DNA from: Gammaproteobacteria bacterium
GTDB lineage: Bacteria > Pseudomonadota > Gammaproteobacteria > Eutrophobiales > Eutrophobiaceae
NCBI GenBank assembly: GCA_028281365.1
Contig: JANQJZ010000023.1
Location: forward strand, 1 to 43,146
Direction of reading: 5' to 3'
DNA length: 43,146 bases
Below the pieces are notes generated by a model, which worked only from the letters and a program-made list of their open reading frames with translations, had not been told where the DNA came from and ran no database searches. Below, one piece after another: positions 32,163 to 35,264 of the stretch. Position 1 is the first letter of the stretch. Each line of letters begins with the position of its first letter. A program made the translations under genes and the position numbers.

Positions 32163-33230
32163 ATGACAGACCTGCCTAAAATAGACCCGGCCTGTTTACC
32201 GGAAGGCTACGAATTACAATGCTATACCATTAAAAAAGTATTGGGCCAGGGTGGTTTCGGCGTAACCTATCTGGCACATGATAAAAATCTGGATCGGGAA
32301 ATTGCCATCAAGGAATTCATGCCCCGTGACATCGCCAAACGTGGCAAAGATTTCACAATTCAATCAATTAATGAGAGTTCCCATGAAAAATTGGAATGGG
32401 GTCTGGAACGTTTTATAAGGGAAGCCCGCACACTTTCAAAGTTTAACCATAATAATATTGTTCGTGTGCATACTGTTTTTGAGGAGAACAGCACAGCATA
32501 TATGGTTATGAGTTATGAGCACGGGATCAGTTTCCATGAAAGGTTGAAAAAAGGCCAGCCGGGTGAAGAGGAATTGATGGATATGCTCATGGGACTATTA
32601 GATGGGCTTGAAGTATTACATGAGGCCAGGTTTATCCATCGGGATATAAAACCCGGGAATATTTTTATCCGTGAAGATGGAACGGCAATTTTACTGGATT
32701 TTGGTTCAGCCCGGCAGGCAATCGGTGAGGAAACGATGACATTAACCAAAGTAGTAACGCCAGGTTATGCTCCATTTGAGCAATACTATGGCAGAAGTGA
32801 TATGCAAGGGCCATGGACAGATATTTACTCGTTAGGCGCGACATGTTTTCGAGCGATAACCGGTGAGCCACCCATTGATGCCACATTTCGTAATCGTTAT
32901 ACGGGCGAGGAGGCCATTAAAGTAGTTTGGGATGATTTGGAAAAACAGGGTAAAAAATATTCGACTTTTTTTCTAAGAGCAATCGAGCATTCCTTGAGAA
33001 GTAATTATAAGGAGAGACCCCGTTCGGCCAGTGAATGGCGGACTATGTTAACTGACCCCAGTCTTTCTACACAGACACAATGGCGTCTGGCCAGCAATAG
33101 TTTTGGTAACAAATCCAGAACAGCGTTGGTTAAGCCGGATAATAAAAAAGTAATAATTCTTTGGGGTATTATCGCTACTCTTTTAGGAGTGGTTTTGCTC
33201 CTGTTAATAAAGATGTTCTTCGCTCAATAA
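32163..33230 (+). CDS. Membrane-anchored Ser/Thr protein kinase (Hanks type)
   Basis: The 355-residue protein has a cytosolic kinase domain (about 20-290). All catalytic features are present: GQGGFG loop (28-33), Lys50 in AIKEF, Glu87, HRDIKPGN (159-166), DFG (179-181) and the activation segment VTPGYAPFEQY. A juxtamembrane stretch follows (about 290-325) and one C-terminal helix (VIILWGIIATLLGVVLLLLI, about 330-350), with almost nothing outside. So no extracellular sensor domain is fused; signals must come from partners. No phosphatase or FHA gene is adjacent. The stop codon overlaps the U-tract of the predicted minus-strand sRNA. Confidence 0.93.
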   Translation: MTDLPKIDPACLPEGYELQCYTIKKVLGQGGFGVTYLAHDKNLDREIAIKEFMPRDIAKRGKDFTIQSINESSHEKLEWGLERFIREARTLSKFNHNNIVRVHTVFEENSTAYMVMSYEHGISFHERLKKGQPGEEELMDMLMGLLDGLEVLHEARFIHRDIKPGNIFIREDGTAILLDFGSARQAIGEETMTLTKVVTPGYAPFEQYYGRSDMQGPWTDIYSLGATCFRAITGEPPIDATFRNRYTGEEAIKVVWDDLEKQGKKYSTFFLRAIEHSLRSNYKERPRSASEWRTMLTDPSLSTQTQWRLASNSFGNKSRTALVKPDNKKVIILWGIIATLLGVVLLLLIKMFFAQ

Positions 33231-33321
33231 AAAAAGCCTGGAATCGCTACACATGGGGGAGGAGGGTTCAGCGACTCCAGGCTTGCTCACAAGCATTCAG
33301 GGAGGAAATAAATAATGATTG
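33229..33321 (-). ncRNA. Predicted CRP-controlled sRNA with anti-Shine-Dalgarno motifs
   Basis: On the minus strand, two perfect CRP-type boxes, a -10 (TAGAAT, 33333-33328) and an intrinsic terminator bracket about 93 nt. The terminator stem is AAGCCTGGAGTCGCT (33284-33270) against AGCGATTCCAGGCTT (33248-33234), followed by seven U (33235-33229). Its 21-nt loop contains CCCTCCTCCCCC. The unpaired 5' part contains TTTCCTCCCTG. Both C-rich tracts are complementary to Shine-Dalgarno sequences. A short hairpin GCTTG-TGAG-CAAGC (33294-33281) sits between. The flanking genes converge here, so neither needs a promoter in this gap. Confidence 0.75.
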
Positions 33322-33327
33322 AGTATA

Positions 33328-33333
33328 ATTCTA
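33328..33333 (-). promoter_or_regulatory. -10 element of the predicted sRNA
   Basis: TAGAAT on the minus strand. With start near 33321 the proximal CRP box centres at -41.5 (class II geometry) and the distal at about -92.5. A second candidate, TATACT at 33327-33322, would shift the start about 6 nt. Confidence 0.6.
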
Positions 33334-33354
33334 GATAATCTTTTCTGATTACGA

Positions 33355-33370
33355 TGTGATAAAGCTCACA
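33355..33370 (-). promoter_or_regulatory. CRP-type box, proximal
   Basis: TGTGA-N6-TCACA, a perfect match to the CRP (or Vfr-type) consensus half sites. Confidence 0.82.
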
Positions 33371-33405
33371 AAACAGGCTGTCATAGTGTAGTTTTATCAG
33401 TTTTA

Positions 33406-33421
33406 TGTGATGTTAATCACA
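33406..33421 (-). promoter_or_regulatory. CRP-type box, distal
   Basis: A second perfect TGTGA-N6-TCACA, 51 bp centre-to-centre from the first, so both lie on the same helical face within about five turns. Confidence 0.82.
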
Positions 33422-33470: not shown

Positions 33471-35264
33471 TTACTCAGGATCAATCATCCCTATTACTGT
33501 CCAGCCTGATTCTGGTGTCATTTTTCCATTTGTAACAAATATATGGAGCCGCTGTTTTGTATCAATCGCAAACATGGGGATGACACGTTCGCCATATTGC
33601 TCAAGGTAATTTTCAAACGAGAATTCATCACTGAGTTGGGTACTTTTTAATTCAGCACCATTTCGTAAGCGGTAGGCCAAATTACCATAAGCGATATCTT
33701 CACCAAAAAGTTCATATCCTCGATGTTTTGTTGAAACGATATGTTTGTCAGAAATATGCTTTTCGCGAGTCGTTTTTAATTCATAAACATTTTTTACACC
33801 GAATTCTGCCTTGAATCGTAAACAAGCCAGTGTATCCAGACTACCTCTCCCTGACATTGCCAGCACCTTACCCAAACCCAGCAGATTCAAATGTCGGTCG
33901 GCGTGTTCAGATATTGGATTTCCAAAATAGGTTTCGAGCCCATCCATTCTCGCAAGGCTGGTGTTTTCCCAGGTGCTATCAGTAAGAACAATTTTAAATC
34001 CATGCTGTTGAAGTATTTTTCCGATAGCTCTGGCGACATTACCTGCGCCAATGATCAAAAGTCCGGTCGGAGGTGGTTCACGGACATTAAGCATGGATGC
34101 TAAATGTCGGGCAGTTGCACTTTGTATAATTACAGTTCCAATAATTATCAGGAAAGTTAATGGAACAAGTAAGCTGGCTTCCGGAATACCTGCACTTTCC
34201 AAACGTAAGGCAAACAATGCTGACACTGCAGCTGCAACAATTCCCCGTGGTCCTATCCACGCAATTAATAATTTTTCATTAATTGTTAAATCAGATCCTA
34301 TAGAGGATATAAAAACTGCTAACGGGCGTGCTACATACATTGTGATGACAAGAATCACAAGGGAGGGCCAGCCTATAAGTATTAATTGAGAAAATTCTAT
34401 CCTTGCCGCAAGAATAATAAATAGTCCGGAGATTAATAGCAGACTCAAGCTTTCTTTAAAATCGAGTACATCGTCAATATGCATGTCCTTCATATTTGCC
34501 ATGGTCATACCCATGATGGTTACTGCGAGTAATCCGGATTCATGCTCAACCAGATCAGATAATGAAAATACGGTAAATACAGTTATTAATGTAATTACAT
34601 TACGCAGATATTGGGGGACTAATTGTTTTCTGAGTAATTCACCCAATAACCAACCACTGAAAAGACCTATCAGAGAACCAAATAAGATTATCTTGCCAAA
34701 AGTAAGAGTAATTATACTCAGGGCGTTATGCTGTTGACCGGAGATAATAAAATTAAAAACCAAAACTGCCAATAAAGCACCAAGGGGATCAATGACAATT
34801 CCTTCCCAACGTAAGACATTGGCAACTTTAGCGTTTGGACGAACAGTTCTTAGCATTGGTAAAATTACTGTAGGGCCAGTAACAATCACAACAGCGCCAA
34901 ATAAAAATGCCAGCTCAAAAGAAAATCCCATCAAATAATGGGTGCTATAGGCAATAATGACCCAGGTTACTAATGCGCCGGTGGTGACAAGGTTTCTAAC
35001 GGTATTACCGTGGCCACGAATATCTTCAAATTTTAATGTCAGACTTCCTTCAAACAGAATTACAGCAACGGATAATGAGACAATAGGGAATAATAGGTCC
35101 CCGAATAAAGTGTCGGGATCAAGTAGCTGGAAGACAGGGCCAACCATGATACCGACAATTAGCAGAAACAAAATTGCGGGGAGTCTTGCCCACCAGGCAA
35201 GCCATTGGCAACCAATACCTAATACACCGATGCCTGCCAGTGATATTAAAATATTATTTTCCAA
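33471..35264 (-). CDS. CPA-type cation:proton antiporter with C-terminal TrkA-N domain
   Basis: The 597-residue protein has 12 or so N-terminal helices (1-385). The CPA signatures include ARLPAILFLLIVGIMVGP, VILFEGSLTL, FLFGAVVIVTGPTVILPML and RWEGIVIDPLGA, with the ion-binding Asp, and the later WIGPRGIVAAAVSALFAL. A cytosolic RCK/TrkA-N Rossmann domain follows (LLIIGAGNVARAIGKILQQHGF from about 400) plus a C-terminal part. It likely exchanges Na+ or K+ for H+ for pH or salt balance. Nucleotide control through the TrkA-N domain is an inference. It is a single gene, 27 bp after the 35292 gene stop on the same strand reading. Confidence 0.92.
   Translation of the reverse strand: MENNILISLAGIGVLGIGCQWLAWWARLPAILFLLIVGIMVGPVFQLLDPDTLFGDLLFPIVSLSVAVILFEGSLTLKFEDIRGHGNTVRNLVTTGALVTWVIIAYSTHYLMGFSFELAFLFGAVVIVTGPTVILPMLRTVRPNAKVANVLRWEGIVIDPLGALLAVLVFNFIISGQQHNALSIITLTFGKIILFGSLIGLFSGWLLGELLRKQLVPQYLRNVITLITVFTVFSLSDLVEHESGLLAVTIMGMTMANMKDMHIDDVLDFKESLSLLLISGLFIILAARIEFSQLILIGWPSLVILVITMYVARPLAVFISSIGSDLTINEKLLIAWIGPRGIVAAAVSALFALRLESAGIPEASLLVPLTFLIIIGTVIIQSATARHLASMLNVREPPPTGLLIIGAGNVARAIGKILQQHGFKIVLTDSTWENTSLARMDGLETYFGNPISEHADRHLNLLGLGKVLAMSGRGSLDTLACLRFKAEFGVKNVYELKTTREKHISDKHIVSTKHRGYELFGEDIAYGNLAYRLRNGAELKSTQLSDEFSFENYLEQYGERVIPMFAIDTKQRLHIFVTNGKMTPESGWTVIGMIDPE

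Follow-up and report, generated by a model that had tools for sequence, protein, structure and literature searches.

The intergenic region between the genes for a Ser/Thr protein kinase and a Na+/H+ antiporter is best explained as a stand-alone gene for a trans-acting small RNA (sRNA) that would be driven by CRP and would block Shine–Dalgarno (SD) sequences, a reading to which we give a probability of about 0.8. With a predicted CRP-type promoter of its own, putative single-stranded anti-SD tracts and an intrinsic terminator, the gene has the features that define CRP-activated SD-blocking trans-acting sRNAs, which form a kind of RNA and not a family. The kind is already known, and the family appears to be uncatalogued; the latter is well supported in an order of uncultured gammaproteobacteria, where the promoter is as sharply conserved as the RNA.

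Architecture of the locus

A reading of the window (the whole stretch of DNA analyzed, 43,146 nt) from its sequence alone had described (i) two perfect TGTGA-N6-TCACA boxes 51 bp apart, (ii) a minus-strand TAGAAT hexamer and a start at 33321 that places the proximal box centre at −41.5, (iii) two C-rich tracts and a run of seven T, and (iv) a stem with one mismatch. All of these were recovered at the coordinates given in Table 1, except that the mismatch is a G–U wobble. The two boxes are the sole matches with at most one mismatch in the window. The stop codon of the kinase gene overlaps the U-tract of the sRNA, and the antiporter gene, on the same strand as the sRNA, stops about 150 nt upstream of it. 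The 93-nt RNA folds with −29 kcal/mol (z = −5.3 relative to shuffled sequences).

In 2.1 Mb of this genome, the perfect TGTGA-N6-TCACA motif occurs 13 times (0–4 for other spacer lengths). All 13 boxes are intergenic, which is unlikely by chance since the intergenic fraction of the genome is about 21%. Pairs of perfect boxes within 60 bp were found in only two places in the 2.1 Mb, namely the sRNA locus and a GGDEF/EAL gene. The genome encodes both a CRP ortholog (above the cut-off of NCBIfam NF008732; 57% identity to Escherichia coli CRP) and Hfq (84% identity to its E. coli counterpart).

Table 1. Features of the sRNA locus and its flanks (window coordinates), and perfect CRP boxes elsewhere in the genome
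Feature	Position	Strand	Observations
Distal CRP box, TGTGATTAACATCACA	33406–33421	−	Centre about −92.5 relative to the predicted start; perfect consensus; distal box recurrent in most homologues
Proximal CRP box, TGTGAGCTTTATCACA	33355–33370	−	Centre at −41.5, class II position; perfect consensus; at most one mismatch in 36/36 loci
−10 hexamer, TAGAAT	33328–33333	−	TA-N3-T, same offset from box centre in 33/36 loci
Predicted sRNA, ~93 nt	33229–33321	−	Covariance models R1 and R2, fold z-score; both ends predicted
5' anti-SD tract, UUUCCUCCC (= TTTCCTCCC)	33300–33308	−	In unstructured leader, unpaired in the fold; CCUCC-type in 31/36 homologues
Conserved linker between tract and stem, UGCUUGUGAGC	33285–33295	−	UUGU invariant in six-sequence alignment; UUGUGA common in wider alignment
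Terminator stem, 5' arm	33269–33283	−	Covariation: both sides changed in 12/14 model pairs
Terminator loop, second anti-SD tract, CCCUCCUCCCCC (= CCCTCCTCCCCC)	33255–33266	−	C-rich UCC-repeat loop in 36/36 homologues
Terminator stem, 3' arm	33234–33249	−	Fold and covariation, as 5' arm
U-tract, seven U; intrinsic terminator tail, putative Hfq site	33229–33235	−	Sequence; Hfq encoded
Ser/Thr protein kinase, convergent flank, outside the sRNA gene	32163–33230	+	Pfam Pkinase
Na+/H+ antiporter with TrkA-N domain, upstream flank on same strand, outside the sRNA gene	33471–35264	−	Pfam
Perfect CRP boxes before GGDEF/EAL (a pair of boxes spaced by 42 bp), HD-domain, BLUF and two PilZ genes (in the order GGDEF/EAL, PilZ, PilZ, HD, BLUF)	L125:4568–4625, L142:12163, L193:13463, L184:12125, L150:17438		

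Distribution of the family

A DNA search of relatives retrieved the RNA from five other genomes. The covariance models R1 and R2 describe the RNA alone and leave the upstream promoter DNA outside. R1 detected the RNA in 28 of the 53 genomes of the same family, covering 14 of its 18 genera with about one locus per genome, and R2 in 30 of the 53 (two of them weakly), covering 15 genera. In a class-wide sample, R2 followed by inspection yielded six loci from four other gammaproteobacterial families (L076, L078, L079, L080, L082 and L083). Two further uncultured gammaproteobacteria contributed L064 and L065, retrieved by a pattern scan of named genomes in which the CRP box formed part of the search pattern. 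The set of 36 loci used below comprises the 28 family loci, the six from other families and these two. Of 369 genomes scanned with a combined box/−10/loop pattern, 5 contained a match; the reversed pattern, used as a control, matched in none.

Fifteen family genomes possess crp, yet the RNA was undetected in them by R1. Genus g15 (seven genomes) has neither crp nor the RNA, a joint absence that is suggestive only, since g15 is one lineage. RNA-positive genomes lacking crp are all incomplete (76% and 83%). Note that in the R1 and R2 scans no clear sRNA was seen in G015 (genus g16) or in genera g11 and g17, which have crp; either loss or divergence would account for these cases. The g11 match, L074, has no CRP box and was left uncounted, and a match in a myxococcotal genome (L062) was dismissed as fortuitous, the sequence being apparently coding. 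Two copies occur in places: L044 carries a tandem second sRNA (1501–1811) that has a CRP-like box and a TATAGT of its own, and G073 has two identical copies on separate contigs.

Conservation of the promoter

The 36 loci are related by descent, so that the following counts are not those of independent trials. In each of the 36 loci, the CRP box has no more than one mismatch, and in 33 of them TA-N3-T lies exactly 29 nt past the box centre, i.e. at the class II offset. Information is concentrated at −49 to −45, −38 to −34 and −12 to −7; it nearly reaches its maximum in the box and the −10 hexamer and is near zero in the spacer; no −35 hexamer is conserved across the 36 aligned loci. The contrast between the putative box and −10 hexamer, on the one hand, and the unconserved spacer, on the other hand, is clear despite the kinship of the loci. 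Most loci also possess a distal box, located for the most part 39–43 or 49–53 bp upstream of the proximal one, and these two spacing clusters lie about one helical turn apart. Tandem CRP boxes in helical phase constitute the arrangement of class III activation, with which the recurrent spacing of the distal box would agree. In genus g18, the box is found some 18 bp further upstream.

This geometry bears on the sign of the regulation. CRP could in principle repress this sRNA, as it does Spot 42 and VcdRP, the latter a C-rich RNA of Vibrio (PMC8672173). We consider this unlikely: a box centred at −41.5 together with a −10 hexamer and no conserved −35 is the classical geometry of an activator, the phased tandem boxes fit class III activation, and the box of CyaR likewise lies near −42. 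Activation by CRP is therefore the reading that we retain.

The genes surrounding the RNA help to decide whether it is a gene in its own right. The antiporter gene lies upstream in 19 of the 36 loci, of which L076 belongs to another family, and the RNA sits about 150 nt past the antiporter stop codon on the same strand; it might accordingly be merely the 3' end of the mRNA of this gene with its intrinsic terminator, or an sRNA derived from the 3'UTR, with CRP boxes that are idle or serve another gene. However, the other 17 loci adjoin different genes and still keep the box, the −10 hexamer, the tracts and the stem, and for a bare terminator both a fixed promoter spacing and an unchanging loop would be superfluous, which makes this explanation very unlikely. 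Among the 28 family loci, 8 have the kinase gene as a neighbour. Since the neighbouring genes vary among loci, the promoter and the RNA are conserved as a unit. The conservation of box, −10 hexamer and RNA among the 36 loci thus supports the earlier proposal that the sRNA has a gene of its own, under a class II CRP promoter. Conservation in relatives, which that proposal had called for, extends to the boxes, the −10 hexamer, the C-rich loop and the 5' CCUCC tract.

Conservation of the fold and of the anti-SD tracts

The terminator stem is supported by covariation: 90% of its pairs are standard ones, 12 of 14 pairs exhibit double changes, and its covariation score is 0.61, compared to 0.25 for shuffled alignments and at most 0.14 for slid controls, in an alignment that was fitted to the model and hence somewhat favours the structure. 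While the letters of the stem change, those of the loop are nearly fixed, and the loop is C-rich in 36/36 homologues. The leader tract is of the CCUCC type in 31/36.

The C-rich tracts match SDs of the generic kind, and none of the candidate targets is conspicuous, as would be expected if they acted as a general SD decoy or as a protein-binding sponge that pairs with no specific mRNA. This is rather unlikely in our opinion, as the combination of a 5' tract with a long tract in the loop, and the conservation of letters past the SD core (UGAUGCUUGUGA), suggest more, and the C-rich RNAs sX13 and VcdRP act on particular mRNAs (PMC3771888 and PMC8672173). We also considered that the transcript might encode a small peptide and be a dual-function RNA like VcdRP, given that the linker of some members contains ATG-CTT-GTG. 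Peptide coding was rejected and is highly improbable: no frame is conserved, the ATG is missing in several members (L036, L040 and L041), the downstream frame differs, and it is an anti-SD, not an SD, that precedes the ATG. The preferred reading remains that of a trans-acting RNA whose two tracts would pair with SD regions.

Comparison with known sRNAs

In Rfam 15, which was searched at gathering and at permissive thresholds, no family matched this RNA, and we found no description of the family in the literature searched (open-licence papers). CyaR (RyeE, RF00112) comes closest in design. It depends on CRP and Hfq and pairs with the SD of ompX in Yersinia, and its seed and terminator-loop motif are conserved (PMC11795201). 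In the E. coli sequence, the promoter of this 87-nt sRNA has a CRP half-site box whose centre lies near −42, and a −10 hexamer TATCAT; in the RNA, a ACCUCCUUA anti-SD tract precedes a terminator hairpin that has UCUCCC in its loop. The class II position of the box (here −41.5, with TAGAAT) and the succession of an anti-SD seed and a CUCCC-type terminator loop are shared by both RNAs, a likeness in layout that does not imply common descent. Unlike CyaR, the present RNA occupies another genomic place and has a longer loop tract and tandem perfect CRP boxes. The RF00112 model (gathering cut-off 47 bits) gave no match in G000 and none above cut-off in the 53 family genomes; its weak sub-threshold matches lie elsewhere than this RNA. 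Conversely, R2 scored E. coli CyaR at 7.2 bits (E = 1.6). CyaR is the closest functional analogue; the model scores show no homology.

The kinship to the alphaproteobacterial cuckoo RNAs that had been implied is not supported, and CyaR is the better comparison. Of the Rfam matches below threshold in the permissive scan, that of CcsR1 (RF02791) had the lowest E-value, and it spans almost exactly this RNA; the score is nevertheless 15.7 bits (E = 0.17) against a cut-off of 65.3. Like the cuckoo/CcsR RNAs, this RNA displays CCUCCUCCC in a hairpin loop, but CcsR1–4 are arrayed one after another, and an RpoHI/HII promoter transcribes them jointly with a DUF1127 gene (PMC10253847), whereas here a single hairpin under CRP is flanked by a kinase and an antiporter gene. 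The ar14/NfeR1 RNAs of Rhizobiales (RF02344) combine the ultraconserved anti-SD CCUCCUCCC in their loops with variable stems (PMC10746234), as does the present RNA, which has one C-rich hairpin instead of three CCUCCUCCC-loop hairpins. RF02344 scored 11.3 bits on this RNA and 20.5 bits on L080, compared to a cut-off of 58.8. Altogether, cuckoo/CcsR and ar14 share only the loop motif with this RNA.

Two other RNAs resemble it in part. VcdRP of Vibrio cholerae is CRP-controlled and pairs with the translation initiation sites of several mRNAs through a 3' C-rich seed (PMC8672173), so that CRP control and a C-rich seed would be common to both; unlike the RNA described here, VcdRP codes for a 29-aa protein and is under repression by CRP. 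The likeness to Xanthomonas sX13 resides in the C-rich loop: the C-rich loops of sX13 are reported to repress mRNAs with G-rich SD regions (PMC3771888), while sX13 has three hairpins with such loops, is Hfq-independent and is not known to be under CRP control.

Candidate targets and the CRP regulon

The sequence-only reading had further proposed that SD pairing represses several mRNAs. Analogy with CyaR speaks for this proposal, and no target was established. The target prediction was run in one genome, where the top SD matches were no better than those of shuffled queries. One of the top matches, g1196, was discarded, its start being internal to a pyruvate kinase gene; the better SD-region scores of this genome included those of ccoP, lpd, amtB, xoxF, transketolase and crp. 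The SD of xoxF (PQQ methanol dehydrogenase), compared over the 45 nt upstream of the gene (L248–L276), is a nearly invariant GAGGAGGAGGTC-ATG across the family, whether the sRNA is present or absent, and the GGGGAG SD of amtB is conserved equally in genomes without the RNA. Both SDs match the loop of the sRNA; being equally kept in RNA-free genomes, they do not demonstrate targeting.

The label "catabolite-type" given to the RNA is not supported. In this genome, the genes behind perfect CRP boxes include those for GGDEF/EAL, two PilZ, HD and BLUF proteins, an N-methylation pilin-like protein and EipA, and CRP may here steer c-di-GMP signalling. In the SD-region ranking, these genes are mostly weak matches to the sRNA, and hence nothing indicates that the genes activated by CRP are the same ones that the sRNA represses.

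The mechanism that we propose is as follows. cAMP–CRP bound at −41.5 would drive transcription of the sRNA in class II fashion, assisted by a second CRP dimer bound in a class III arrangement about four or five helical turns upstream. The RNA would expose an anti-SD tract in its open leader and a second, longer one in the loop of its terminator hairpin. Together with Hfq, on which we infer that it depends, it would most likely pair with the SD regions of several mRNAs and halt their translation at high cAMP, as CyaR does in enterobacteria. The promoter, the fold and both tracts are conserved, and crp and hfq are present. A broader proposal strikes us as doubtful, namely that a widespread and uncatalogued gammaproteobacterial sRNA family links cAMP–CRP (here tied to c-di-GMP genes) to repression of genes of one-carbon and central energy metabolism whose SDs are unusually G-rich (xoxF, ccoP, lpd, amtB and transketolase).

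The data suggest that a CyaR-like design, i.e. a class II CRP promoter, an anti-SD seed and a C-rich terminator loop, exists far outside the enterobacteria, by descent or by convergence, and the alignment makes this alternative testable. Finally, four weak R2 matches (L085, L088, L089 and L090) belong to another type of RNA. In the stretch that begins some 140 nt ahead of the match and runs to its end, they have no CRP box and display an upstream GGAACTTTT-N16/17-GTCT-like motif resembling an ECF or sigmaE promoter. Their consecutive hairpins carry CCUCCCU or CCCC loops, and they are possibly gammaproteobacterial cuckoo-like RNAs.
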